The notes under the pieces are model-generated. The model saw only the letters and a program-made list of their open reading frames with translations. It ran no database searches and was not told the origin of the DNA. Source: Sphingobium sp. KCTC 72723 (GTDB taxonomy: Bacteria; Pseudomonadota; Alphaproteobacteria; Sphingomonadales; Sphingomonadaceae). From it: DNA of 64,000 nucleotides. The stretch covers positions 4,186,001 to 4,250,000 of the forward strand of contig NZ_CP060388.1 of assembly GCF_014280435.1 (NCBI RefSeq), given 5' to 3'. Shown here piece after piece: positions 1,895 through 16,823 of the stretch. The position numbers were made by a program, and so were the translations under genes. The stretch's first letter is position 1. The number at the start of each line of letters is the position of its first letter.

Positions 1895-2476
1895 ATGCGA
1901 ATCGTCATCATCGATGACAGCGGCCTGCGTGCGAGTGTCCTGGAGGAAGGGCTGCGCGACGCGGGTTATGACGATATTCATATCGTGCCGCCGCGCGGCG
2001 GGTTCGTCGCGCGGTTGGAACGCATGGCCCCCGATGTCGTGCTGATGGACCTGGGCAGCCCCAGCCGCGACACGCTGGAAGAAATGTTGTCGGTCAGCCG
2101 TGCGCTCGCCCGGCCGATCGCCATGTTCGTGGACCAGTCCGACGACGCGATGATCGGCGCGGCGATCGACGCGGGCGTATCTGCCTATGTCGTCGATGGT
2201 CTGCGCAAGGAACGGGTCAAGCCCGTGCTGGAACTGGCGGTGCGCCGCTTCAATGCCTTTGCCAAGATGCAAAGCGAACTGGACGAGGCGCGCACGGCCT
2301 TGTCCGATCGCAAGGTCATAGACCGGGCCAAGTCCATCCTGATGAATCAGCGCGCTTTGTCGGAACAGGATGCCTATGCGCTGTTGCGGTCCGCCGCGAT
2401 GAACCAGGGCAAGAGGATCGTGGAGGTCGCACAGGCACTGATTACCGCCAGCGACCTGCTGGGAGGAGGATTATGA
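1895..2476 (+). CDS. nasT: NasT, ANTAR-domain transcription antiterminator for nitrate assimilation
   Basis: A 193-residue protein. Residues 1-120 form a receiver-like domain beginning MRIVIIDDSG, with an aspartate at position 52 (LMDLG) where response regulators are phosphorylated. Residues about 130-185 (DRKVIDRAKSILMNQ...) are an ANTAR RNA-binding domain. The ATG at 1895 was chosen because the fold starts there; the upstream extension of the open frame is not protein-like. It overlaps nasS by ATGA. In known NasS-NasT systems NasS holds NasT inactive until nitrate binds, then NasT prevents termination in leader RNAs. Two candidate leaders lie downstream, at 3746-3870 and 6517-6648. Confidence 0.92.
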   Translation: MRIVIIDDSGLRASVLEEGLRDAGYDDIHIVPPRGGFVARLERMAPDVVLMDLGSPSRDTLEEMLSVSRALARPIAMFVDQSDDAMIGAAIDAGVSAYVVDGLRKERVKPVLELAVRRFNAFAKMQSELDEARTALSDRKVIDRAKSILMNQRALSEQDAYALLRSAAMNQGKRIVEVAQALITASDLLGGGL

Positions 2477-3687
2477 CGACGAGCCTGCGTATCGCCTTCC
2501 TGCCGTTGACCGATGCGGCCGTGCTGGTCGCCGCGCGCGAACGCGGTTTTGCGGAGGAAGAAGGCATCGCCCTAGACTTGGTGCGCACCACCAGTTGGGC
2601 GACGTTGCGCGACCGGCTGGTCTATGGTCAGGTGCAGGCCGCCCATATGCTGGCCCCGCTGGCGGTTGCGGTGACGCTGGGGCTGAGCCAGCAGCCTGCG
2701 CCGCTGGCCGCGCCCTACAAACTCAACGTCAACGGCAACATGCTGGTGATGGCGTGCGAATTTGCCCGCGCGCTGGACCCGAACCTTGTCAGTCGTCTGG
2801 CCGATCCGCTGGGGACCGCGCATGATTTTGCCGCCGCCATCGGCCTGTGGCGGCGCAAGCCGGTAATTGGCGTCGTCCACCGTTTTTCCAGCCATGCCGT
2901 CATGCTGCGTTACTGGCTGGCGAGCGCGGGTATCGATCCCGACCGGGACGTGGTGCTGCGCGTGCTGCCGCCGTCGCTGACGGTGGAAGCGATGCGAGGC
3001 GGGGAGATTGACGGTTTCATCGCGGGCGAACCGTGGGGCAGCGCTGCGGTCGAGGCGGGACTGGCCGAAACTGTGGCGATCGGCGAACGCATCTGGCAGC
3101 GCGGGGTGGAAAAAATACTGGCCTTCCGTGAGGCGTGGATGGAGGAAAATCCCGATACGGTCGACCGGCTGCTGCGCGCGCTGGCGCGGGCGGCGACATG
3201 GTGCGACGACCCGGCCCATCATGGCGATCTGGCCGACCTGCTCGCCCGGCCCGATTATGTCGATCAGCCTGCCGACATCATCCTGCGCGCCCTGTCGGGT
3301 GGCATAGTGGCGCGAGCGGGCGAAGCGCCGATTCCCAATCCCGATTTTCTGCTGTTCGCGCGCGAAGCCACGCCCTTTCCGTGGCGCAGCCAGGCATTGT
3401 GGATCTATTCGCAACTGGTGCGCTGGAACATGGTCGATCATGACCCGGCGACCGCCGCGAAAGCGGCTGCGGTGTTCCGGCCCGACATTTTCCGCCGGGC
3501 GCTGGTGAATAGCGACATGGCCATGCCGGGCGCCAGCATGAAAGTGGAAGGGGCGCTGGGTTCTCCCCTGGCGGTGGGATCGCGCCGGGGCGAATTGACG
3601 CTGGGACCGGACCGATTCTTCGACGGGCGCATGTTCGACCCGGAACGGATCGAGGAGTTTCTTGCTTCCTTTCCGCCGCTGCGTTGA
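2473..3687 (+). CDS. nasS: NasS, cytoplasmic nitrate sensor of the NrtA/CmpA-like fold
   Basis: A 404-residue protein related to the periplasmic nitrate/bicarbonate-binding proteins NrtA and CmpA. It begins MTTSLRIAFLPLTDAAVLVA with no signal peptide, which is the mark of NasS rather than of a transporter subunit. It overlaps nasT by four bases (ATGA), so the two are translationally coupled. Known role: it binds nitrate or nitrite and releases NasT for antitermination. There are no permease or ATPase genes next to it, supporting the sensor reading over an ABC transport role. Confidence 0.9.
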   Translation: MTTSLRIAFLPLTDAAVLVAARERGFAEEEGIALDLVRTTSWATLRDRLVYGQVQAAHMLAPLAVAVTLGLSQQPAPLAAPYKLNVNGNMLVMACEFARALDPNLVSRLADPLGTAHDFAAAIGLWRRKPVIGVVHRFSSHAVMLRYWLASAGIDPDRDVVLRVLPPSLTVEAMRGGEIDGFIAGEPWGSAAVEAGLAETVAIGERIWQRGVEKILAFREAWMEENPDTVDRLLRALARAATWCDDPAHHGDLADLLARPDYVDQPADIILRALSGGIVARAGEAPIPNPDFLLFAREATPFPWRSQALWIYSQLVRWNMVDHDPATAAKAAAVFRPDIFRRALVNSDMAMPGASMKVEGALGSPLAVGSRRGELTLGPDRFFDGRMFDPERIEEFLASFPPLR

Positions 3688-3708: not shown

Positions 3709-3737
3709 TTGCAACATGATGCGATTCGCGGGATAAA
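3709..3737 (+). promoter_or_regulatory. putative sigma70-type promoter of the nitrate transporter transcript
   Basis: TTGCAA at 3709-3714 and GATAAA at 3732-3737 are separated by 17 bases; each matches the consensus at four of six positions. Initiation would fall near 3744, directly in front of the first leader hairpin (3746). The same spacing recurs before the nirB leader. This is a visual call. Confidence 0.45.
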
Positions 3738-3745
3738 GGCATTGT

Positions 3746-3870
3746 CGCGCGATGAAGCGCGTTTATACGGATGTGCGTTCCCAAGGGCGGGACTGCCATC
3801 CCCATCCACATCGCAGCAAAGCCGCTGACCGGACATGCCATAGGGCGTCGTCCGGCCTGCGGCTTTTTTT
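3746..3870 (+). promoter_or_regulatory. ANTAR-type antitermination leader upstream of the nitrate transporter
   Basis: Three hairpins in order. The first is CGCGC/GCGCG (3746-3750, 3757-3761) with six-base loop GATGAA. The second is GCGTTCCC/GGGACTGC (3775-3782, 3789-3796, one mismatch, one G-T pair) with six-base loop AAGGGC. The third is a terminator: AAAGCCGC (3818-3825) pairs with GCGGCTTT (3859-3866), with an inner CCGGAC/GTCCGG stem and a run of seven T at 3864-3870. Paired hexaloop hairpins with A at loop position 1 and G at position 4 are the known ANTAR target; loop two fits, loop one has G at both positions 1 and 4. The leader starts 59 bases after nasS. Confidence 0.75.
3818..3870 (+). 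terminator. regulated intrinsic terminator before the nitrate transporter gene
   Basis: An 8-base outer stem (AAAGCCGC with GCGGCTTT), a 6-base inner stem (CCGGAC with GTCCGG) and a seven-T run, ending 31 bases before the transporter ATG. A strong terminator in front of a gene only makes sense if it is conditionally read through. Confidence 0.85.
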
Positions 3871-3901
3871 CGTGTCCAATTCCGTTTTCTGGGGACGTAT
3901 C

Positions 3902-5146
3902 ATGGCAACTGCTTATTGGGATCGCGACAAGGAGGGTGAGCAGCCCGCCGTCGCGACCAGCTTCTGGAAGGCCGGCCACACGCCGACCCTTATCGCCGCT
4001 TTTCTCTATTTCGACCTTGCCTTCATGGTGTGGGTCTTGCTGGGGCCGCTTGCCCCGATGATTGCCACCACGCTGGCGCTGACCCCGGCCGAAAAGGGGC
4101 TGATGGTCGCCACGCCGACGCTGATGGGCGCGCTGCTGCGCGTGGTCAACGGCCTGCTGGTCGACCGTATCGGCCCGAAATTGTCGGGCGCGATCAGCCA
4201 GGTGATCGTCATCGTCGGCTTGTTCACGGCCTGGATGATGGGCGTCAGCAGCTTTGAAGGCACGCTGGCGCTGGGCGTCGTGCTGGGCTTTGCGGGGGCA
4301 AGCTTTGCCATCGCGCTGCCGCTGGCCAGCCGCTGGTATCCGCCCGAACATCAGGGCAAGGCAATGGGCCTGGCCGGTATGGGCAATAGCGGCACGGTAT
4401 TGGCGTCGCTGTTCGCCCCGGTGCTGGCCAAGCTGTTCGGCTGGAACGCGGTGCTGGGCCTGGCCTGCATCCCGCTGTCGATCGTGTTCGTGGTCTATAT
4501 GATCATGGCGAAGGACGCGCCCAATGCGCCAGCACCAAAGAAGATCGTCGATTATTTTCAACCGCTTAAACAAGCCGATGCCTGGCTGCTCATGGCCTTT
4601 TACGCCGTCACCTTCGGCGGTTTCGTCGGGCTGGCCGCTTCGCTGCCCATCTACTTCACAGACCAGTTCGGCCTGACGCCGATCGTGGCGGGGTACTGCA
4701 CCGCAGGCTGCGTGTTCGCCGGGTCGCTGGTCCGTCCGATGGGCGGGGCGCTGGCCGACAAGATCGGCGGCGTGAAAGCGTTGATGATCGTCTACATCAT
4801 TGCCGCCATCGCGCTGGCCGGGGTCGCTTATGCCACCACCCTGCCTGCGGCGCTGGGCCTGTTCGTCCTTGCCATGCTGGCGCTCGGCACGGGCAATGGT
4901 TCGGTGTTCCAACTGGTGCCGCAGCGGTTTCAGGCCGAAATCGGCGTGATGACCGGGCTGGTCGGCATGGCTGGCGGCATTGGCGGCTTCTACCTTGCCA
5001 GTTCGCTGGGCTTTGCCAAGCAGCTGACCGGCAGCTTTTCCGCCGGGTTCCTGATCTTTGCCGGGCTTTCGGTGCTGGCCTTCGTCGGCGTCGCGCTGGT
5101 CAAGGCCCGCTGGCGCGCAACCTGGACCACGGGCGCACGCATCTGA
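3902..5146 (+). CDS. narK: NarK/NasA-type MFS nitrate/nitrite transporter
   Basis: A 414-residue, 12-helix membrane protein. Two glycine-rich stretches, GMGNSGTVLASLFAP and GTGNGSVFQLVPQRF, are the nitrate signatures of the NNP family; they line the anion path in NarK. The ATG at 3902 is used because the frame upstream runs through the leader terminator and is not coding. Its position after nasTS and before nirBD and nasA points to assimilatory nitrate uptake. Transcription probably depends on NasT reading through the terminator at 3818-3870. A nitrite/nitrate exchanger role is also possible. Confidence 0.9.
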   Translation: MATAYWDRDKEGEQPAVATSFWKAGHTPTLIAAFLYFDLAFMVWVLLGPLAPMIATTLALTPAEKGLMVATPTLMGALLRVVNGLLVDRIGPKLSGAISQVIVIVGLFTAWMMGVSSFEGTLALGVVLGFAGASFAIALPLASRWYPPEHQGKAMGLAGMGNSGTVLASLFAPVLAKLFGWNAVLGLACIPLSIVFVVYMIMAKDAPNAPAPKKIVDYFQPLKQADAWLLMAFYAVTFGGFVGLAASLPIYFTDQFGLTPIVAGYCTAGCVFAGSLVRPMGGALADKIGGVKALMIVYIIAAIALAGVAYATTLPAALGLFVLAMLALGTGNGSVFQLVPQRFQAEIGVMTGLVGMAGGIGGFYLASSLGFAKQLTGSFSAGFLIFAGLSVLAFVGVALVKARWRATWTTGARI

Positions 5147-5169
5147 TTTGACGAGTTTGGAGGGGCGGG

Positions 5170-5195
5170 GGCGGACCTTCCCAAGGAAGGCCGCC
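5170..5195 (+). terminator. intercistronic hairpin between transporter and porin
   Basis: GGCGG-A-CCTTCC (5170-5181), loop CAA, then GGAAGGCCGCC (5185-5195): an 11-pair stem with one bulged A. There is no T run, only TCCTT, so it may be a weak terminator or an RNA-stabilising hairpin that lowers or protects expression within the operon. Confidence 0.5.
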
Positions 5196-5238
5196 TCCTT
5201 AACAGTGTCGCAACATCATCCAGGGGGGATGAATTTCC

Positions 5239-6459
5239 ATGAAATATATGATCGCAACGGCGGCCACATTGGCCGTCGCAGGGAACGCCATGCCTGCTGC
5301 ACATGCTCAGGACATCGTCCTCAAGCCCGTCGCCGAAGCCCGGCTGCGCTACGAACAGGCCGACCAGAAGGGGCTGGCGAGCGAGCAGTCCGACGCGCTG
5401 ACCGTGCGCGCCCGTGCTGGCCTGACCGCCAGCAGCGGCGCGCTGTCGGCGACCGTGGTGGGGCAGGGGACGCTTGCGGTCATCGACAAATATTATGACG
5501 GCCTGAATGGCGCTGCGACTCGGCCGATCGTTGCCGATCCTGAAAATATCGCGCTCTACATCGCCCAGCTGCAATATAAGACCAAGACACTGACACTCAC
5601 CGGCGGGCGGCAGAAAATCGCGCTGGATGACGAACGCTTCGTCGGCAATGTCGCCTTCCGTGACAACGGCCAGACGTTCGACGCGGTGCGCGCCGAACTG
5701 ACCCCGGCCAAGGGGCTGAAGGTGGACCTGTCCTACGCCTGGAGCGTGCGCACCATCTGGGGTTTTCAGGGCAAAAATGCGCGGCAGCAGGCGGTGAGCG
5801 GCGACAATATCTTCGCTAACCTGTCCTACGTCACGCCCATCGGCGCGCTGACCGGCTTTGCCTATCTCGTCGATCAGGATGAAGCCGCGATGCAGGGCTT
5901 TCGCATGTCCAGCCAGACCTATGGCGTGCGGCTGGCAGGCGCGCGTCCGCTGTCGAAGGTGGCGAAGCTCAGCTACCAGCTCAGCTATGCGCGCCAGTCG
6001 GACTATCACCGCAATCCCAACGATTACAGCGCCGACTATTGGCTGGCCGACGCGACGCTGGACGTGAAGGGATGGAAGCTCAACGCAGGCTATGAAGTGC
6101 TGGGCGCGAGTCGGGGTGCCGCTCTCACCAGTTTTCAGACGCCGCTCGGCACCAATTTCAAGTTTCAGGGCTGGGCCGACAAGTTTCTGATCACCCCTGC
6201 CAATGGCATCCGCGACCTGTATGTCGGCGGCGGTTATGGCTGGAAACAGCTGGGTCCGCTGTCGGGCGTGGCGTTGATGGCGACCTGGCATCGCTTCGAC
6301 AGCGACCGGCTGGACCAGCATTATGGCAATGAGATCAACCTTATCGCATCGGCGAAGGTGAAAAAGACGGCCCTGTCCGTCCGCTACGCCCGTTATGATG
6401 CCAAGGTGACGGCGACCGACACTCACAAACTGTGGATTCAGGCCGACTGGGCCTATTGA
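5239..6459 (+). CDS. outer-membrane porin-like protein (alginate-export/Alginate_exp type fold)
   Basis: A 406-residue protein with a cleavable signal peptide (MKYMIATAATLAVAGNAMPA, cleavage near AHA-QD). The mature part has alternating polar/hydrophobic strands, aromatic girdles and ends HKLWIQADWAY, as in outer-membrane beta barrels. It resembles the alginate-export porin family often found in sphingomonad nutrient clusters. Placed between the nitrate transporter and nirB, it probably lets nitrate or nitrite through the outer membrane; that substrate is inferred from context only. Shine-Dalgarno-like AGGGGG lies just upstream. Confidence 0.75.
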   Translation: MKYMIATAATLAVAGNAMPAAHAQDIVLKPVAEARLRYEQADQKGLASEQSDALTVRARAGLTASSGALSATVVGQGTLAVIDKYYDGLNGAATRPIVADPENIALYIAQLQYKTKTLTLTGGRQKIALDDERFVGNVAFRDNGQTFDAVRAELTPAKGLKVDLSYAWSVRTIWGFQGKNARQQAVSGDNIFANLSYVTPIGALTGFAYLVDQDEAAMQGFRMSSQTYGVRLAGARPLSKVAKLSYQLSYARQSDYHRNPNDYSADYWLADATLDVKGWKLNAGYEVLGASRGAALTSFQTPLGTNFKFQGWADKFLITPANGIRDLYVGGGYGWKQLGPLSGVALMATWHRFDSDRLDQHYGNEINLIASAKVKKTALSVRYARYDAKVTATDTHKLWIQADWAY

Positions 6460-6468
6460 TCGACCGCG

Positions 6469-6502
6469 AACGGAATCGCTTGAGCGTGTCGGCGATTCCG
6501 TT
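6469..6502. promoter_or_regulatory. 11-base inverted repeat over the nirB promoter (possible operator)
   Basis: AACGGAATCGC at 6469-6479 is repeated as its exact reverse complement GCGATTCCGTT at 6492-6502. The arms flank the candidate -35 box (6480-6485) and the right arm fills the spacer up to the -10 box (6503-6508). It could be a regulator site or the terminator of the porin gene; the placement over a promoter favours a site. Confidence 0.5.
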
Positions 6503-6508
6503 TATGGT
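6480..6508 (+). promoter_or_regulatory. putative sigma70-type promoter of the nirB transcript
   Basis: TTGAGC (6480-6485) and TATGGT (6503-6508) are spaced by 17 bases, each four of six to consensus. Start of transcription would fall near 6515, again immediately before the first leader hairpin, mirroring the layout at 3709-3746. Confidence 0.45.
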
Positions 6509-6516
6509 GCAATGCA

Positions 6517-6648
6517 AGAGGACAGAGTTGTCCTTCCAACCATAGCCAATATGATCCAGGGACGGGTCGTTGCGGCACTTATGATGGCAAAGCCGCCATC
6601 CTGACTTCCGGTTCTAACCGGGGGTCAGGATGGCGGCTTTTTTGTTTT
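6517..6648 (+). promoter_or_regulatory. ANTAR-type antitermination leader upstream of nirB
   Basis: First hairpin: AGGAC/GTCCT (6519-6523, 6530-6534) with six-base loop AGAGTT. Second hairpin: ATGATCC/GGGTCGT (6551-6557, 6564-6570, two G-T pairs) with six-base loop AGGGAC. Both loops have A at position 1 and G at position 4, the known ANTAR recognition pattern. A 17-pair perfect terminator stem with a T run follows at 6589-6648. Spacing of all parts is close to the leader at 3746-3870. Known biology of NasT/NasR makes this a very likely NasT target. Confidence 0.85.
6589..6648 (+). terminator. 17-bp regulated terminator before nirB
   Basis: Bases 6589-6605 (AAAGCCGCCATCCTGAC) pair perfectly with 6624-6640, with a small CCGG/CCGG hairpin inside the loop (6608-6621), followed by T-rich 6638-6648. 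It ends 15 bases before the nirB ATG. An in-frame ATG inside this stem (6630) is not the start codon. Confidence 0.9.
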
Positions 6649-6662
6649 CTGGAGTGACGAGG

Positions 6663-9185
6663 ATGGAATTTCAGGACGGAGTGAGTCCGGTGACGGACAG
6701 CGGGGACGACATCCTCGTACCGATGGACGATGTGCGCGAGCATCTGGTCGTGGTCGGCAACGGCATGGCCGGGTGCCGCGCGGTGGAAGAATTGCTGGCG
6801 CGCGACGCTGGACGCTACCGCGTCACCATCTTCGGCGCGGAACCGCATGTGAACTATAACCGCATCATGCTGTCGCCGGTGCTGGCGGGCGAAAAAACGT
6901 TCGATGACATCGTCATCAACGACCGCGCCTGGTATGCCGACAATGACATCGAACTGATCGTCGCGGACCCGGTGACCGCCATCGACCGCGCAGCCAAGAG
7001 CGTCACTGCCAATAGCGGCCGCACCGTGCATTATGACAAGCTGCTGATCGCCACAGGGTCCGACCCGTTCATCATCCCGGTGCCGGGCAAGGATCTGCCC
7101 GGCGTCATCAGCTTCCGCGACATGCAGGATGTCGACACGATGCTGGCGGCGGCTGAGGCTGGCAAAACGGCGGGAGGCGGCAGCGCCGTCGTGATCGGCG
7201 GCGGCCTGCTGGGGCTGGAAGCGGCGCACGGGCTGACGTTGCGCGGCATGAAGGTCACCGTCATCCACCTGATGGACACGCTGATGGAACGTCAGCTGGA
7301 CGAAGCGGCAGGCTGGCTGCTCAAGAGCGCGCTGGAAGCACGCGGCCAGACGATCCTGACCGGCGCGAACACTGCCGAAATCTTTGGGCAAGGCAAGGTC
7401 GAGGGCGTTCGTTTGAAGGATGGCCGCGAAATCCCCGCCAGTCTGGTCGTGATGGCCGTGGGCATCCGCCCGTCCACTGCGCTGGCGCGCGAAGCGGGGC
7501 TGGCGGTCAATCGCGGCATCCAGGTCGACGATCATATGGTCACCAGCGACGTTGACGTGCTGGCGGTCGGCGAATGTGTCGAACATGACGGCAATGTCTA
7601 CGGCCTGGTCGCGCCGCTGTGGGACATGTGCCGCAGCCTGGCCGATGGCCTGACCGACCGGCACACAGGCTATAAGGGCAGCGTGACCTCCACCAAGCTC
7701 AAGGTTGCGGGTCTGGACGTGTTTTCCGCCGGCGATTTCTCCGGCGGCGAAGGGTGCGAGGATATCGTGCTGCGCGACGCTTCGCGCGGCGTCTACAAGC
7801 GCGTAGTCGTCAAGGACGATCGCGTCATCGGCGCGGTGCTGTATGGCGATACCGCTGACGGTGGCTGGTATTTCGACCTTCTGAAAAAGGATGAGGATGT
7901 CGCCGACATTCGCGACCTGCTGATCTTTGGCCAGTCCTTCGCCTCTGGAGGAGGCGTGATGGACCCTAAGGCGGCCGTTGCAGCGCTCTCGGACGATGCC
8001 GAGATTTGCGGCTGCAACGGCGTGAGCAAGGGGCAGGTCGTCGCCTGCATCGAAAAGGGCGCGTGCAGCCTGGACGCGGTGCGCGCGGGCTGCAAGGCTT
8101 CGGCCAGCTGCGGCAGCTGCACGGGGCTGGTCGAAAATATCCTGGCGCTGACGCTGGGCGACGATGTCCAGTCCGGGCCGAAGACGATGTGCAAATGCAC
8201 CAGCTTTGGCCATGACGATGTGCGCCGCGAAATCGTGGCGCAGGACATGCGTTCCATCCCCGAAGTGATGCAGAAACTGCACTGGTCCACGCCCGACGGC
8301 TGTTCTTCATGCCGGCCTGCGCTCAATTACTATCTGCTCTGCGCGCTGCCCGGCGTCTATGTCGACGATCAGCAGAGCCGCTTCGTCAACGAACGGATGC
8401 ACGCCAATATCCAGAAGGACGGCACCTATTCGGTCGTTCCGCGCATGTGGGGCGGCCTGACCAACCCGCGCGAATTGCGGGCGATTGCCGACGTGGTCGA
8501 AAAATATGACGCGCCGATGGTGAAGGTCACCGGCGGCCAGCGGCTCGACATTTTCGGCATCAAGAAGGAAGATCTGCCTGCCGTCTGGGCGGATCTCAAT
8601 GCGGCGGGCATGGTATCCGGCCACGCCTATGGCAAGTCGCTGCGCACCGTCAAAACCTGCGTCGGGTCCGAATGGTGCCGCTTTGGCACGCAGGATTCGA
8701 CGGGCCTTGGCGTCAAGACCGAGCGGATGACCTGGGGGTCGTGGATGCCGCACAAGTTCAAGATCGCGGTGTCGGGCTGCCCGCGCAATTGCGCGGAAGC
8801 CACGATCAAGGATTTCGGCATCGTGTGCGTCGATTCGGGCTATGAACTCCATGTCGGCGGCAATGGCGGCATTCATGTCCGCGTCACCGATTTCCTGTGC
8901 AAGGTATCTACTGAGCAGGAAGCGCTCGATTACTGCGCCGCCTTCACGCAGCTTTACCGCGAGGAAGCCCGCTATTTGGAGCGCACCGCGCCTTGGATCG
9001 AACGGGTAGGGGTCGATTATGTCAAAGCCCGGATCGCGGACGATGACGCAGGCCGCGAAGCGCTGCGCGCCCGTTTCCTCTATTCGCAAAGTTTCAGCCA
9101 GGACGACCCGTGGGCGCAGCGCGCCGCCGGTGCCGAAACCGAGCTGCACCAGCATCTCCAGCCCATCTCCATCGCTGCGGAGTGA
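6663..9185 (+). CDS. nirB: NirB, assimilatory NADH-nitrite reductase large subunit
   Basis: An 840-residue cytoplasmic flavo-hemoprotein that reduces nitrite to ammonium with NADH. In order: FAD-binding Rossmann motif (VVVGNGMAG, about residue 30), NAD-binding VIGGGLLGLEAAHG (about 180), two cysteine-rich [2Fe-2S] BFD-like segments (CGCNGVSKGQVVACIEKGAC and CKCTSFGHDDV, with CxxC partners), then the siroheme/[4Fe-4S] domain with CVGSEWCRFG and SGCPRNCAEA. The ATG at 6663 lies after the leader terminator; an internal ATG at 6723 is an alternative nearer the E. coli start. nirD follows after 5 bases. Confidence 0.95.
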   Translation: MEFQDGVSPVTDSGDDILVPMDDVREHLVVVGNGMAGCRAVEELLARDAGRYRVTIFGAEPHVNYNRIMLSPVLAGEKTFDDIVINDRAWYADNDIELIVADPVTAIDRAAKSVTANSGRTVHYDKLLIATGSDPFIIPVPGKDLPGVISFRDMQDVDTMLAAAEAGKTAGGGSAVVIGGGLLGLEAAHGLTLRGMKVTVIHLMDTLMERQLDEAAGWLLKSALEARGQTILTGANTAEIFGQGKVEGVRLKDGREIPASLVVMAVGIRPSTALAREAGLAVNRGIQVDDHMVTSDVDVLAVGECVEHDGNVYGLVAPLWDMCRSLADGLTDRHTGYKGSVTSTKLKVAGLDVFSAGDFSGGEGCEDIVLRDASRGVYKRVVVKDDRVIGAVLYGDTADGGWYFDLLKKDEDVADIRDLLIFGQSFASGGGVMDPKAAVAALSDDAEICGCNGVSKGQVVACIEKGACSLDAVRAGCKASASCGSCTGLVENILALTLGDDVQSGPKTMCKCTSFGHDDVRREIVAQDMRSIPEVMQKLHWSTPDGCSSCRPALNYYLLCALPGVYVDDQQSRFVNERMHANIQKDGTYSVVPRMWGGLTNPRELRAIADVVEKYDAPMVKVTGGQRLDIFGIKKEDLPAVWADLNAAGMVSGHAYGKSLRTVKTCVGSEWCRFGTQDSTGLGVKTERMTWGSWMPHKFKIAVSGCPRNCAEATIKDFGIVCVDSGYELHVGGNGGIHVRVTDFLCKVSTEQEALDYCAAFTQLYREEARYLERTAPWIERVGVDYVKARIADDDAGREALRARFLYSQSFSQDDPWAQRAAGAETELHQHLQPISIAAE

Positions 9186-9190
9186 ATGAC

Positions 9191-9526
9191 ATGACCGACT
9201 GGATCGACATCGGCACATTGGCCGACATTCCCCAACGCGGCGCGCGCACCGTCCATATCGGCGGCGAAAAGGAAATCGCCGTTTTCCGCACCGGCGACGA
9301 CCATGTGTTCGCGCTGATCAACGAATGCCCGCACAAGAAAGGGCCGCTGAGCCAGGGCATCGTCCATGGCCACAACGTCGCCTGCCCGCTGCACAACTGG
9401 AACATCGCGCTGAAAACCGGGGAGGCGCAGGGCGAGGATAAAGGCTGCACCCCCACGATCGCGGTGAAACAGGAAGATGGCCGCATCCTGATCGCCCGGC
9501 CTGTTTCGATGAAGGATGCGGCGTGA
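9191..9526 (+). CDS. nirD: NirD, nitrite reductase small subunit with Rieske centre
   Basis: A 111-residue protein of the NirD/Rieske family. The ligands C46-P-H48 and C65-P-L-H68 are all present, so this version should bind a Rieske [2Fe-2S] cluster, unlike E. coli NirD. It partners NirB. The ATG at 9191 lies 5 bases after the nirB stop; the longer open frame upstream overlaps nirB and is not used. Confidence 0.93.
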   Translation: MTDWIDIGTLADIPQRGARTVHIGGEKEIAVFRTGDDHVFALINECPHKKGPLSQGIVHGHNVACPLHNWNIALKTGEAQGEDKGCTPTIAVKQEDGRILIARPVSMKDAA

Positions 9527-9541
9527 GGAAGCACAACCAAA

Positions 9542-9644
9542 AGCCCCTCCCCTTCAGGGGAGGGGTTGGGGTGGGGGCGTGCCTGAGACGCTGCGCCCGA
9601 TGGATAGCCCCCACCCCCGTCCCCTCCCCTGAAGGGGAGGGGCT
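9542..9644. repeat. large GC-rich inverted repeat between nirD and nasA
   Basis: Left arm 9542-9565 and right arm 9621-9644 are exact reverse complements (24 bases, built from CCCCTCCCCT and AGGGGAGGGG). Each arm is itself a palindrome around TTCA/TGAA. Related blocks occur at 19549-19675 and 52624-52680. The right arm contains the only purine-rich ribosome-binding sequence for nasA. Confidence 0.85.
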
Positions 9645-9647
9645 ATA

Positions 9648-12257
9648 ATGGCCGAACCTATCCGCACCACCTGCGCCTATTGCGGCGTCGGCTGCGGCAT
9701 CGCGGCGACGCCGACCGGCAGCCGCGCCGTGACGATCAGGGGCGACGAAGCGCATCCGGCCAACGCCGGAAAGCTGTGTTCCAAAGGCACGCATCTGGGC
9801 GAGACGGTGGGCCTTGAAGGCCGTTTGCTCCATCCCATGATCGGCGACAAGCGCGCCAGTTGGGACAAGGCGCTCGATCTTGTGGCCAAACGTTTCCGCG
9901 AAACCATCGCCAGACATGGTCCCGACAGTGTCGCCTTCTACGTCTCCGGCCAATTGCTGACCGAAGATTATTATGTCGCCAACAAGCTGATGAAGGGCTT
10001 TATCGGGTCGGCCAATATCGACACCAACAGCCGCCTGTGCATGTCGAGCGCAGTCGCGGGCCACAACCGGGCCTTTGGTGAGGATGTCGTTCCCGCCAGC
10101 TATGACGATCTGGACGAAGCGGACCTCATCGTGCTGGTCGGGTCCAACACCGCCTGGTGCCACCCGATCGTCTATCAGCGAATCCAGGCCGCCCGCGCCA
10201 CGCGCGGCACGAAACTGGTGGTGATCGACCCGCGCCGCACCGAAACCTGCGAAGGCGCGGACCTGCATCTGGCGCTGAGGCCCGGCAGCGACGTCGCGCT
10301 GATGAACGGGCTGCTCGCCTGGATGGATCAGGCGGGGCAACTGGACGCGGATTTCATGGCGCGCAGCGTCAACGCGCCCGACGGCTTCTGGGACCATATC
10401 CGCACCGGCCATGACCTGTGGACGACGGCCAAGGCGTGCGATCTGCCGCCCGCCATGCTTCAGCAATTTTACGAACTGTTCGCTGCGAACCCGCGCACCG
10501 TCACGATGTTCAGCCAAGGCATCAACCAGTCGATTCGCGGCACCGATCAGGTCAATGCGATCATCAACGTCCACCTCGCCACCGGCCGCATCGGCAAGCC
10601 GGGTGCCGCGCCCTTTTCGATCACGGGTCAGCCCAACGCCATGGGCGGGCGCGAAGTCGGTGGCCTTGCGTCCACGCTGGCGGCGCATATGGATTTTGCG
10701 CCGGACAATGTCGCGCGCGTCGGCCGCTTCTGGGCCGCGCCGACCATGGCGACCAGGCCGGGGCTGAAGGCCGTCGACCTGTTTCGCGCGATCAACGAAG
10801 GGCGGATCAAGGCGCTGTGGGTGATGGCGACCAACCCCGCCGTTTCGCTGCCCGACGCCAATCGCGTCCGCGAAGCGCTGGAAAGCTGCCCCTTCGTCGT
10901 CGTGTCGGACGTGATGGCCACCACCGACACCGCCGTCCACGCCCATGTCCGCCTGCCCGCCGCGGCATGGGGCGAAAAGGACGGCACCGTTACCAACTCG
11001 GATCGCACGATCAGCCGCCAGCGCGCGCTGCTGCCGCTGCCTGCCGAAGCGAAACCCGACTGGTGGATCGTGACGGAAGTCGCGCGGCGCATGGGGTTTC
11101 GCAATGCTTTCGCTTATGATCGGCCCGCCGACATCTGGCGCGAACATGCGCGCCTGACTGCTTATCAGAATGACGGCGCGCGGCTGCTGAACCTGCGCGG
11201 TCAGGCGACCATGGGCAACGAAGCCTATGACGCGATGGAACCGTTCCGCTGGGGCGACACGCCCTTCGCCGATGGGCGTTTTTCGACTCCCGATGGCAAG
11301 GCGCGGCTGCTGCCGGTCAGCCAGATGGATGTTCAGGCACCGCTGCGCGACTGGCCGATGACGCTGAACACCGGGCGCTATCGCGACCAGTGGCATACGA
11401 TGACTCGCACCGGCCTGTCGCCCAAACTGGCGCGCCATCGCGAGGAACCGCTGGTCGAAATCCATCCCGCCGACGCCGCCGCGCTCGGTATCGCCGATGG
11501 CGATCTGGCCCGCGTCGCCACGCCGCAGGGCGAAAGCCTGTTCCGGGCGGCGATCAGCACTGGCCAGCGCGTTGGTGAAATATTCACCCCGATCCACTGG
11601 ACAGACCAGCAATCGAGCGGGGGGCGCACGGGCTTGCTGCCCCGCCCGTTGGTCGATCCCCATTCGGGTCAGCCGGGCTTCAAATCCACGCCCGTTCGCG
11701 TCGAAAAAGTCGCTACCGAATGGAAAGGCTTCCTCATCCTGCGCGGCGACGAACCCGTGCGCGTGCCATGCCTGTGGGCCACCCGCATCACCGTACCGGG
11801 CGGCGCGCTGTATGAAGTGGCGGGCAATGGCGATGCGGCGCGGCTGGAAGCCTGCCTGCCCAAGGGTGAGCGCGTAGAGGCGATCGACCAGACGCGCGGT
11901 ACGCGCCGCGTCGCGATCATCCGCGACGGCAAGCTGGCGGGCGTGCTGATCGTCACCCGCACCGGCATATTGCCGACCCGCGACTGGCTGATCGGCCAGT
12001 TGGCGGTCGAAAGCGTCGGTGCATCGGTGCTGGCGGCACGTGGGCCGGGCAATCAGCCGGATAAGGGCGCAATCATCTGCGTCTGTTTCGACATCGGTTT
12101 GAACACTATCGTCGCCGCCATCCGCAGCCAGCAACTGGTGGACGTGCCTGCCATCGGTGCAGCCCTTGGCGCAGGGACCAATTGCGGTTCCTGCCGCCCC
12201 GCACTTGCCAACATCCTTGCCCAGACTCGACAGGAGACGCTCCATGCAGCCGAATGA
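9648..12257 (+). CDS. nasA: assimilatory nitrate reductase, molybdopterin catalytic subunit
   Basis: An 869-residue cytoplasmic enzyme reducing nitrate to nitrite. The N-terminal [4Fe-4S] ligands are C9, C12, C16 and C44 (TTCAYCGVGC, KLCSKG). The Mo-bisMGD body follows (STLAAHMDFAPDNV and SDVMATTDTAVHAHVRLPAA regions), then the C-terminal molybdopterin-binding domain. Residues about 810-865 carry an extra BFD-type [2Fe-2S] domain (CVCFDIGLN, TNCGSCRPAL), as in Klebsiella NasA. No separate NasC-type electron-transfer subunit is seen nearby. The cobA gene overlaps its end by 14 bases. Confidence 0.93.
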   Translation: MAEPIRTTCAYCGVGCGIAATPTGSRAVTIRGDEAHPANAGKLCSKGTHLGETVGLEGRLLHPMIGDKRASWDKALDLVAKRFRETIARHGPDSVAFYVSGQLLTEDYYVANKLMKGFIGSANIDTNSRLCMSSAVAGHNRAFGEDVVPASYDDLDEADLIVLVGSNTAWCHPIVYQRIQAARATRGTKLVVIDPRRTETCEGADLHLALRPGSDVALMNGLLAWMDQAGQLDADFMARSVNAPDGFWDHIRTGHDLWTTAKACDLPPAMLQQFYELFAANPRTVTMFSQGINQSIRGTDQVNAIINVHLATGRIGKPGAAPFSITGQPNAMGGREVGGLASTLAAHMDFAPDNVARVGRFWAAPTMATRPGLKAVDLFRAINEGRIKALWVMATNPAVSLPDANRVREALESCPFVVVSDVMATTDTAVHAHVRLPAAAWGEKDGTVTNSDRTISRQRALLPLPAEAKPDWWIVTEVARRMGFRNAFAYDRPADIWREHARLTAYQNDGARLLNLRGQATMGNEAYDAMEPFRWGDTPFADGRFSTPDGKARLLPVSQMDVQAPLRDWPMTLNTGRYRDQWHTMTRTGLSPKLARHREEPLVEIHPADAAALGIADGDLARVATPQGESLFRAAISTGQRVGEIFTPIHWTDQQSSGGRTGLLPRPLVDPHSGQPGFKSTPVRVEKVATEWKGFLILRGDEPVRVPCLWATRITVPGGALYEVAGNGDAARLEACLPKGERVEAIDQTRGTRRVAIIRDGKLAGVLIVTRTGILPTRDWLIGQLAVESVGASVLAARGPGNQPDKGAIICVCFDIGLNTIVAAIRSQQLVDVPAIGAALGAGTNCGSCRPALANILAQTRQETLHAAE

Positions 12258-14523: not shown

Positions 14524-14607
14524 CGACACGGGCGGCTTGGCACCGCTCCACCTTTCCCCTAGAGCGCGCGGCGCAGGGGCGGTTCATCGTCCTTGCAATA
14601 GATCGCG

Positions 14608-14805
14608 CCGGTGCCTCGCAAGAGGCTGAAAACGGGAATGTGGTGCGGGCGGGAAACTGCCCTATTCCACGGCTGTCCCTGCAACTGTAAGCGGTGAGCG
14701 CGATGCACAGAGGGTTTCAAAGACCCGGTCACTGAACCTTTTGGGTTCGGGAAGGCTTGTGCATCGCCGCTATGACCCGCGAGCCAGGAGACCTGCCGGC
14801 GTCTG
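14608..14805 (+). ncRNA. cobalamin (AdoCbl) riboswitch
   Basis: The conserved B12 box GAGCCAGGAGACCTGCC is at 14781-14797. Upstream are the other core pieces in order: the GGTGCCTCGCAAGAGGCTGA start (14610 on), GGGAA, and GCAACTGTAAGCGGTGAG near 14680. It sits about 180 bases before btuB and should lower BtuB production when cobalamin is plentiful. Exact ends are approximate. Confidence 0.95.
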
Positions 14806-14987
14806 GTCGCTCTTGCCCTGATCCAGGGGATGGTCATGGCACGGTGGTTTTCCGTCGAGCGACGCTATGCGGCCGGGGCCGCATCGTGCCGTGCGGCGGG
14901 GGGTGGCGTCATCCTGCATCGCGGCGCGACCGTTGCGAAACGGACGCCCCGGCCTTGAAGTCGCACATGACGCTCAGGGCTATTATC

Positions 14988-16823
14988 ATGGTAAAAACAG
15001 GGATTTCTCTTCTCGCGCTGCTGGCGGCCACGCCTGCTTTGGCACAGGATGACAATATCGTCGTCACCGCGTCGGGCATTGCCCAATCGCGCGACGAAGT
15101 CGGCCAGGCAATCACCATCATCGATGCAAAGACGATCGACACGCGGCAGGCGGTCGATGTGGTCGATCTGCTGGCGACCACGCCGGGGGTCCGCTTCAAC
15201 CGCAATGGTTCCACTGGCGGCGTGACCGGCGTGTCGCTGCGCGGCGCGGAAACGACGCAGACGCTGGTGCTGATCGACGGGGTCAAGGTCAACGACCCCA
15301 GCGGCATTGGTGACGGCTATGATTTCGGCCATTTGCTGACCGGCAATATCCGCCGGATCGAAGTGCTGCGCGGCTCCAACTCGGTCGTGCATGGCAGCCA
15401 GGCGATCGGCGGCGTGGTCAACATCATGACCGGCGTGCCGGCGGAAGGTTTCGGGGCCAACGCCTCGGTCGATTATGGCTATAGCGATACGCTGAACGCG
15501 AAAGCAGATGTGTCTGGCACCAGCGGCATGGCGTCGGGCGGCATTGGCGCAGCCTATTTTCGCACCGATGGCATTTCGTCGGCTGTGGGTGGCACGGAAA
15601 AGGACGGCTATGAAAATATCGCCACCAATGCCCGGCTGAAACTGGCGTTCAGCGACGCGCTGAGCCTCGATCTGCGCGGCTATTATATCCATGCTGACCT
15701 CGACTATGACAGCTTCTTCGGCGCGCCTGCCGACAGCAGCGACGTGTCGAAAATGGACCAATATGTCGGCTATGCGGGCCTCAACCTTGCCCTGCTCGAC
15801 GGTCGCCTGACCAGCCGCGCGGCGGTGACTTACTTGCGCAACGACCGCGACTATTATTTCGTGCGCGGCACCGACGCGGATTATGGCTATTCCGGCACCA
15901 ACCTGCGCTTTGAATATGAAGGCGTATATGCCCCGGTCGATCAGGCCAAGCTGGTGTTCGGCTATGAACATGAGCGCCCCGATTACGACTTCTTCGGTTT
16001 CGGCAGTACGTCGTCGGCGAAGATCAATATCGACAGCGTCTATGCGCTGGCGATCGTCAAGCCCTTGACTGGCCTGTCCGTCACTGGCGGCGTGCGCCAT
16101 GACGACCATAGCCAGTTCGGCGGCGCAACCACGTTCGGTGCGAACGCCAACTACACGCCCAATGCGGGCGCGACCAATGTGCGATTAAGCTATGGCGAAG
16201 GGTTCAAGGCACCCTCGCTCTATCAGCTTTACGACACATTCAGCGGCAACAGCGCGCTGCGCCCCGAACGATCGAAAAGCTACGACATCGGCTTCGACCA
16301 GAGCCTGGACGGGGAGCGGGCGATCCTGTCGGTCACGGCGTTCCTGCGCAACACCACTGACCAGATCAATTACGACAATGCGACCTTCAGCTACAGCAAC
16401 CTCGACCGCACCCGTGCCAAGGGCGTGGAAGCGAGCATTGCGCTGAAGCCCGTGGACGCGCTGACCGTGACCGGCAGCTATAGCTATGTCGATGCGCGCG
16501 ATCGGTCGGGTGGGGCTACGGATGGCAACCTCCTGCCGCGCCGCGCGGTCAACGCGGTCAGCGTCTCGGCAGACTATGTCTGGTCCTTCGGCCTGTCCAC
16601 CGGCGCGACGCTGACTATGGTGGGCGACAGCTTCGACAATGCCGCCAACACCCGCCGCCTCGACGGCTATGCGCTGGCGGGCCTGCGTGCCGCGTTGTCG
16701 CTGGGCGAGCATCTGGAAGTCTATGGCCGCATCGACAATCTGTTCGATGAAGCCTACGCCACCGCCTATGGCTATGGCGTTTATGGCCGCTCCGCCTTTG
16801 GCGGCGTGCGTGTCCGCTTCTGA
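14988..16823 (+). CDS. btuB: TonB-dependent vitamin B12 receptor BtuB
   Basis: About 611 residues with a signal peptide (MVKTGISLLALLAATPALAQ), a TonB-box-like DNIVVTASG at the mature N-terminus, a plug domain (VSLRGAETTQTLVLIDGVKV, GSNSVVHGSQAIGGVVNIMT) and a barrel ending in phenylalanine (GGVRVRF). It imports cobalamin across the outer membrane with TonB energy. Control by the riboswitch at 14608-14805 confirms the substrate. An ATG seven codons upstream (14967) is an alternative start. Confidence 0.93.
   Translation: MVKTGISLLALLAATPALAQDDNIVVTASGIAQSRDEVGQAITIIDAKTIDTRQAVDVVDLLATTPGVRFNRNGSTGGVTGVSLRGAETTQTLVLIDGVKVNDPSGIGDGYDFGHLLTGNIRRIEVLRGSNSVVHGSQAIGGVVNIMTGVPAEGFGANASVDYGYSDTLNAKADVSGTSGMASGGIGAAYFRTDGISSAVGGTEKDGYENIATNARLKLAFSDALSLDLRGYYIHADLDYDSFFGAPADSSDVSKMDQYVGYAGLNLALLDGRLTSRAAVTYLRNDRDYYFVRGTDADYGYSGTNLRFEYEGVYAPVDQAKLVFGYEHERPDYDFFGFGSTSSAKINIDSVYALAIVKPLTGLSVTGGVRHDDHSQFGGATTFGANANYTPNAGATNVRLSYGEGFKAPSLYQLYDTFSGNSALRPERSKSYDIGFDQSLDGERAILSVTAFLRNTTDQINYDNATFSYSNLDRTRAKGVEASIALKPVDALTVTGSYSYVDARDRSGGATDGNLLPRRAVNAVSVSADYVWSFGLSTGATLTMVGDSFDNAANTRRLDGYALAGLRAALSLGEHLEVYGRIDNLFDEAYATAYGYGVYGRSAFGGVRVRF

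Follow-up and report, generated by a model that had tools for sequence, protein, structure and literature searches.

A probable NasT-dependent antitermination leader with three hexaloop hairpins before nirB in a sphingomonad nitrate cluster

The stretch before nirB in Sphingobium sp. KCTC 72723 is a real and conserved RNA leader that very probably has its own promoter and serves NasT-dependent transcription antitermination. It carries three hairpins with six-base loops, here called A, B and C, followed by a terminator with which hairpin C is mutually exclusive, and is the second of two such leaders in the nasT-nasS cluster (leader 2; leader 1 lies before narK). The extra hairpin A is its least familiar feature. 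The stretch of DNA that was analysed, referred to as the window, comprises 64,000 nucleotides (G000:C1:4186001-4250000) of a 4.43-Mb genome. All positions given are those of the window, and all features described lie on its + strand.

The order of the elements is nasT, nasS, leader 1, an MFS transporter gene, a porin-like gene, leader 2, nirB, nirD and a nitrate reductase gene. The product of nasT (1895..2476) is a receiver and ANTAR protein (Pfam ANTAR, 66.5 bits; Response_reg, 33.3 bits), and that of nasS (2473..3687) is an NMT1_2-type binding protein (NMT1_2, 221.3 bits), presumably the nitrate/nitrite sensor, a role taken from the known NasS family. By Pfam matches and gene order, they form a NasS-NasT pair, in which a receiver-like and ANTAR protein adjoins an NMT1/NrtA-like binding protein. 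Next come a narK/nasA-type MFS transporter gene (3902..5146; MFS_1, 141.7 bits), named from its context, an outer-membrane porin-like gene (5239..6459; Alginate_exp, 25.3 bits for a cut-off of 25.2), nirB for the nitrite reductase large subunit (6663..9185, ATG at 6663; NIR_SIR, Pyr_redox_2 and Fer2_BFD), nirD for the Rieske-type small subunit (9191..9526; Rieske_2, 56 bits) and the gene of an assimilatory-type nitrate reductase (9648..12257; Molybdopterin, 253.3 bits). The latter is followed by what we take, from gene order, to be a cobA-like gene. By eye, a CAA-triloop hairpin that is not ANTAR-like (CCTTCC-CAA-GGAAGG) was seen between the MFS and porin genes (5160-5205), and a long, REP-like, C/G-rich inverted repeat between nirD and the nitrate reductase gene (9541-9645). 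A Cobalamin riboswitch (14592-14814; 104.3 bits) lies 5' of an ORF (14757-16823) that resembles, by eye, a TonB-dependent receptor gene.

The only ANTAR match in the genome is nasT (one match), which provides the cognate ANTAR protein of an ANTAR-target RNA. Residues 2 to 183 of NasT align with EutV (6WSH) with an E-value of 1.9e-19. In our own numbering, with an offset of two, Tyr164, Met172, Lys143 and Lys147 of EutV correspond to Tyr161, Met169, Lys140 and Arg144 of NasT, so that Tyr, Met and Lys are kept at the reported RNA-contact positions of EutV.

The region from 6440 to 6690 folds more stably than all 200 shuffles (z -7.06). An earlier note on this DNA had described two A1/G4 hairpins with six-base loops before nirB, and both were found: hairpin A at 6518..6535 (loop AGAGUU, 6524-6529) and hairpin B at 6551..6570 (loop AGGGAC, 6558-6563), closed by the C-G pairs C6523-G6530 and C6557-G6564, respectively. 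Neither overlaps the terminator, so that the view of them as the terminator-acting pair is not supported. The hairpin that excludes the terminator had been missed; it is the antitermination hairpin C at 6583..6600, GAUGGC[AAAGCC]GCCAUC, also an A1/G4 hexaloop, with C6588-G6595 as closing pair. Its loop and 3' arm belong to the 5' arm of the terminator (6589..6643; stem 6589-6612/6617-6640, T-run 6638-6643). A strong terminator is therefore present as the note had stated (-47.4 kcal/mol for 6587-6641), but its stem is of 24 bp rather than 17, and the T-run ends 19 nt rather than 15 bases from the nirB ATG (14 nt if the interrupted T-tract up to 6648, seen by eye, is counted).

Stepwise-length folding, which gives equilibria at fixed lengths and not kinetics, yielded a probability of hairpin C of 0.99-1.00 at RNA ends 6600-6628, of 0.22 at 6632 and of zero at 6636, the length at which the terminator replaces it. 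In the finished leader the terminator fold (-71.7 kcal/mol) is favoured over the fold holding C (-54.4 kcal/mol) by 17.3 kcal/mol, and any antitermination effect must therefore be kinetic or protein-driven. The linkers are 15 nt between A and B and 12 nt between B and C (34 and 31 nt from loop to loop). The latter fits both the 5-12 nt of the eut leaders and the 2-25 nt reported to be accepted in actinobacterial ANTAR-target RNAs, the former only the wider range. As only C shares bases with the terminator, B and C fit the published ANTAR pair better than A and B, with B as the upstream member. No Rfam family matched the leader at its gathering threshold, and at E <= 5 just two microRNA families appeared, far under their cut-offs.

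Leader 1 shows the same order of elements. Hairpin A (3746..3761) has the G1/G4 loop GAUGAA, and hairpins B (3779..3792, loop AAGGGC) and C (3814..3827, loop AAAGCC) have A1/G4 loops; C is again exclusive with the terminator (stem 3818-3866, 3818..3869 with the T-run; -32.8 kcal/mol for 3816-3871). Leader 2 appears, as judged from the sequence, to be a second ANTAR-type antitermination unit beside leader 1, as had been proposed, and it is kept in relatives. Both leaders are preceded, at an equal offset, by a promoter-like block recognised by eye and made of a TTG element, a CGATTC motif beginning 13 nt from the start of that element and, after a spacer of 17 nt, a -10-like hexamer (TTGCAA, CGATTC and GATAAA at 3709..3737; TTGAGC, CGATTC and TATGGT at 6480..6508). 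The motif CGA[AT]TC was found in 49 of 106 leaders, hence under half of them, versus 114 of 2120 shuffles, and a common transcription factor may act at both blocks. In relatives, the promoter-like block often has an A-rich stretch resembling TGCnGCAnTGCAAAA upstream of it. An inverted repeat, AACGGAATCGC / GCGATTCCGTT, spans the block of leader 2 (6469-6503) and was also seen by eye in L033, not in L035.

Covariation was evaluated on an alignment (A1) of the 20 relatives' leader-2 sequences found in loci L032-L060, from which the window and the leader of L049, seen by eye, were left out. For the structure made of A, B and C, 90.9% of the cells pair, and both sides change in 10 of 18 pairs, namely 5 of 6 in A, 4 of 6 in B and one in C. 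The covariation score was 0.352 compared with 0.149 in shuffles (0/500), the structure having been drawn on one member sequence, which gives it an advantage over slid versions. The loop-closing pairs of A, B and C are C-G in 20/20 relatives. When the terminator replaces C, 95.8% of the cells pair and 12 of 24 pairs show double changes; in L044 and L054 the 5' arm of C, the shared arm and the 3' arm of the terminator change in concert. For leader 1, 12 close-clade sequences with a called hairpin A, the window apart (alignment A3), gave 98.7% paired cells (100% in helix A), double changes in 3 of 13 pairs and a score of 0.193 versus 0.137 (0/500).

A covariance model (R1) was built from the 20 relatives with the window held out; its calibration was short and its E-values are rough. 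It matched leader 2 at 6512-6643 with 108.6 bits (E 5.2e-22) and leader 1 at 3739-3869 with 38.6 bits (E 5.9e-7). At E <= 1e-3, R1 matched 37 of the 298 family genomes, 36 of which carry nasS; outside the 20 training genomes, 16 of 17 do so. The match in the single nasS-negative genome, G274, appeared on inspection by eye to be a chance hit in coding sequence. The next match after the nirB leader in the window's own genome (G000:C1:1899789; 25.2 bits, E 0.03) was rejected as a further leader: it is a terminator that follows a 329-aa ORF, and helix B is unpaired there. The whole-genome scan did not list leader 1, which direct searches found, so that it can miss weak leaders; since R1 also reaches few far-clade leaders, its hits are no census.

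The loops themselves were counted in 92 loci (91 relatives' and the window), which hold 196 terminators outside mapped genes. These counts are descriptive and do not represent independent trials, because the loci are related. Of 146 hexaloop hairpins lying on the 5' arm of a terminator, 119 are A1/G4, as are 112 of 218 hexaloops in the 150 nt upstream of the 121 leaders identified in this way (G1/G4 in 32); pentaloops and heptaloops scored at the same positions gave 5 of 68 and 12 of 87, respectively. At 464-600 nt upstream of the leaders, A1/G4 fell outside the eight commonest classes among 95 hexaloops.

Taken as a NasT-dependent leader, the region before nirB would work as follows. Hairpins A, B and C would form one after another during transcription. 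When nitrate is absent, NasT would be held by NasS, C would yield, and its 3' arm would enter the 24-bp terminator, stopping transcription before nirB. In Paracoccus, nitrate or nitrite is described as separating NasS from NasT and setting NasT free (PMC3795266). In the presence of either, free NasT might dock on A and/or B, reach C and keep it closed until the polymerase has passed, allowing transcription of nirB, nirD and the nitrate reductase gene. Leader 1 would act likewise on narK and the porin gene.

We consider it a serious but somewhat less than even possibility that many NasT leaders are three-hairpin relays, in which A and B catch NasT and hand it to C as the polymerase moves. An ordinary two-hairpin ANTAR leader, in which only B and C act with NasT and A is a stem stabilising the 5' end or a decoy, has close to an even chance of being the correct description. 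It would account for the linkers, as the published range includes B-C and the 15 nt of A-B exceed that of eut, and for the position of A, which would sit within a few nucleotides of the presumed transcription start. A mere stabilising stem, however, needs no G4 hexaloop, and among the 39 hexaloop hairpins found in the region of A in the close clade (L032-L060, with the window), 30 have a purine at loop position 1 and G at position 4. In addition, A covaries as described and lies at a nearly constant distance from B in leader 2, of 33-37 nt between loops (29-33 nt in leader 1).

The clade survey of A, B and C, which omits 4 of the 121 leaders (L034, L046, L050 leader 1 and L085; in the first three the detector seems to have mistaken B for C), bears on both readings. 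Among close-clade sequences with a called B, A was called in 16 of 17 for leader 2 and 13 of 19 for leader 1 (21 and 23 leaders in total). In the far clade it is rare, being called in 7 of 39 leader-1 and none of 27 leader-2 sequences with B (41 and 28 leaders in total), and most leaders there show B and C alone, which speaks for the two-hairpin reading. The far-clade distances between the B and C loops are long (42-57 nt in 63 of the 66 leaders 1 and 2 with a called B) and, like the rarity of A there, count against the NasT-dependent leader set out above. The idea that long B-C spacers are folded, leaving a short effective path to C, was rejected: in the 73 leaders with a B-C distance of at least 40 nt, the unpaired mean was 7.8 versus 7.0 with shuffled flanks, although the flanks fold somewhat better (mean z -1.34; 36/73 below -1). 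The loop of A in leader 1 is G-initial in 9 of 13 sequences, mostly G1/G4, a further point for A being accessory. EutV is described as contacting G4, with A1 serving mainly to shape the loop (PMC8934654), so that G1 may be tolerated in loop A.

Two hexaloops upstream of C also occur elsewhere. With a looser detector of 8-nt arms, whose counts are not comparable with those of the 9-nt detector used for the 92 loci, the 121 leaders and the 62 named loci below, 8 of 33 loci of other Alphaproteobacteria (L181, L185, L187, L190, L195, L198, L201 and L206; tally by eye) had two, the nearer at 19-31 nt, and 7 of 10 nirB leaders of the non-alphaproteobacterial family f177 had hexaloops 41-42 and 18 nt before C. 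The covariation in an alignment of the f177 leaders (A2; 8 distinct rows, L300 and L307 omitted of 11) was not above shuffles (score 0.076, reached by 96/500), and hairpin A in these leaders therefore rests on spacing and loops.

The distribution of the leaders bears on their relation to each other. Among the 298 family genomes, nasS was found in 91 (the window's own included) at 92 places; at each of the 91 outside the window, nasT lies directly upstream of nasS (91/91). ANTAR matches occur in 96 of these genomes, one each except for two in G011. We also compared 62 named loci, mostly of Sphingobium, Novosphingobium and Sphingomonas, with three Brevundimonas MAGs and others, a set that overlaps the family genomes. 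Of these, 56 yielded leader 1, 52 leader 2 and 47 both; L249, on a contig that stops after nasS, was the one locus with neither. The locus of Sphingobium sp. SYK-6 (L242) is among those with both. The comparison with other sphingomonads, proposed in the earlier note, thus shows the leader to be conserved. Among the 82 family loci bearing nirB (window included), leader 2 was detected in 49 and both leaders in 40. In 25 of the 33 without a detected leader 2, nirB lies within 60 bp of an upstream narK or porin gene, and leader 1 was detected in 15 of these 25 (tallies by eye); the other 8 include L049, in which leader 2 is visible by eye. As nirB adjoins the upstream gene in most loci without a detected leader 2, the leader follows the transcription unit. 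The usual layout, tallied by eye, is either one fused operon or two units each with a leader, a pattern that fits a single NasT gate recurring with every transcription unit.

The proposal that the two leaders gate uptake and reduction independently is improbable in this light. In its favour, narK and nirB are in separate transcription units, leaders precede other operons in some relatives, and the two leaders differ in loop A (GAUGAA and AGAGUU) and in terminator strength (-32.8 and -47.4 kcal/mol). Against it, both should answer to the same NasT, the single ANTAR protein of the genome, and to a single signal, and the promoter-like block is common to both, at an equal offset; the 25 loci in which nirB adjoins its upstream gene also speak against it. 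What is separate is the transcription unit and not the signal. Parallel induction of both units, perhaps with different thresholds, is likelier than independent control.

In some relatives, leaders were also seen before genes for an NrtA-like binding protein, a porin, a nitrate reductase with flavodoxin-type domains and an MCP-signal protein. About 4 kb into their loci, leader-like elements off the nas cluster are followed by genes for NrtA-like binding proteins (L164, L165 and L170), a porin (L168) or nitrate-reductase-like proteins (L169 and L171), that of L169 with flavodoxin and FAD/NAD domains. At L163:3753-4674 (genome G031, contig C26), an R1 leader-like element is followed, after some 200 nt, by a 225-aa ORF matching MCP-signal with 60.4 bits, and PilJ with 23.9 bits, below the cut-off of 26.6; nasS of this genome is on another contig (C14). 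NasT control of a chemotaxis-type protein is possible at this locus.

That the stem at 6589-6640 is a plain terminator of the porin gene and the upstream hairpins incidental is very improbable: it does lie downstream of that gene with a good T-run, and stems of this type are common, but the A1/G4 enrichment, the covariation of A and B, the promoter-like block between porin gene and stem, and the joint changes of the C and terminator arms in L044 and L054 all argue against it.

The NasT-dependent leader proposed here may be compared with known systems. The eut leaders of Enterococcus faecalis, bound by EutV, likewise have A1/G4 hexaloops with the second hairpin overlapping an intrinsic terminator, and several leaders, four in eut, per ANTAR protein (PMC3369931, PMC8934654). 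They differ in having two hairpins with a linker of 5-12 nt, 24 nt from loop to loop in eutP (A29 to A53), whereas leader 2 has three, 34 and 31 nt apart; moreover, EutV is activated by phosphorylation (PMC3369931, PMC8934654), NasT presumably by release from NasS. A 14-nt linker impaired induction in eutP (PMC3369931, PMC8934654), and a linker extension of 20 nt abolished EutV antitermination (PMC8934654). The 15-nt A-B linker of leader 2, the long far-clade B-C distances and the single covarying pair of helix C thus weigh against the NasT-dependent reading. The Klebsiella nasF leader shares nitrate-responsive antitermination and a two-hairpin A1/G4 motif with a terminal C:G pair, but has two hairpins (P1P2), and its protein NasR itself senses nitrate (PMC7496416). 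The nasA system of Paracoccus denitrificans, under NasST, is similar in its upstream nasT-nasS genes, its leader hairpins and the binding of NasT to leader RNA, hairpin HI being required for expression and growth on nitrate; it has one leader, whose mutated hairpins HI and HII are not presented as A1/G4 hexaloops in the portions available, where a third hairpin goes unmentioned (PMC5424462, PMC3795266). In Pseudomonas, the leader NalA, according to a review, also provides NasT antitermination before nirBD, but from a reported sigma54-dependent promoter (PMC12830290). In Bradyrhizobium diazoefficiens, one NasT binds the nosR leader, and putative NasT hairpins lie in the nirA, coxS, narK and bjgb leaders; these leaders precede other genes, and narK-bjgb goes up, not down, without NasT (PMC6759348).

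Several leaders under one NasT, and NasT acting before nirB, are thus already known. In the accessible parts of the open-licence literature (including PMC8164766) we did not find a NasT leader with three hexaloops; Romeo 2012, Wang 2012 and Nie 2024, outside that scope, may describe one. Judged on sequence grounds, leader 2 would be a known kind of switch, but with three putative protein-docking hairpins against two in the textbook version. Our results assign the antitermination step of nitrate clusters in sphingomonads to hairpin C and not to the two hairpins first noticed, and suggest one NasT gate repeated per transcription unit. If the relay is true, the recruitment hairpins would serve for tuning through their number and loop, with settings that vary from clade to clade and between the two leaders of one cluster. 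A dimer of an ANTAR protein seems to contact a single hairpin at a time, which raises the question of why two are needed (PMC8934654). Related leaders that have or lack a third A1/G4 hairpin offer a natural comparison for it; such two- and three-hexaloop leaders would, if the relay holds, test the 'hopping' model proposed for EutV.
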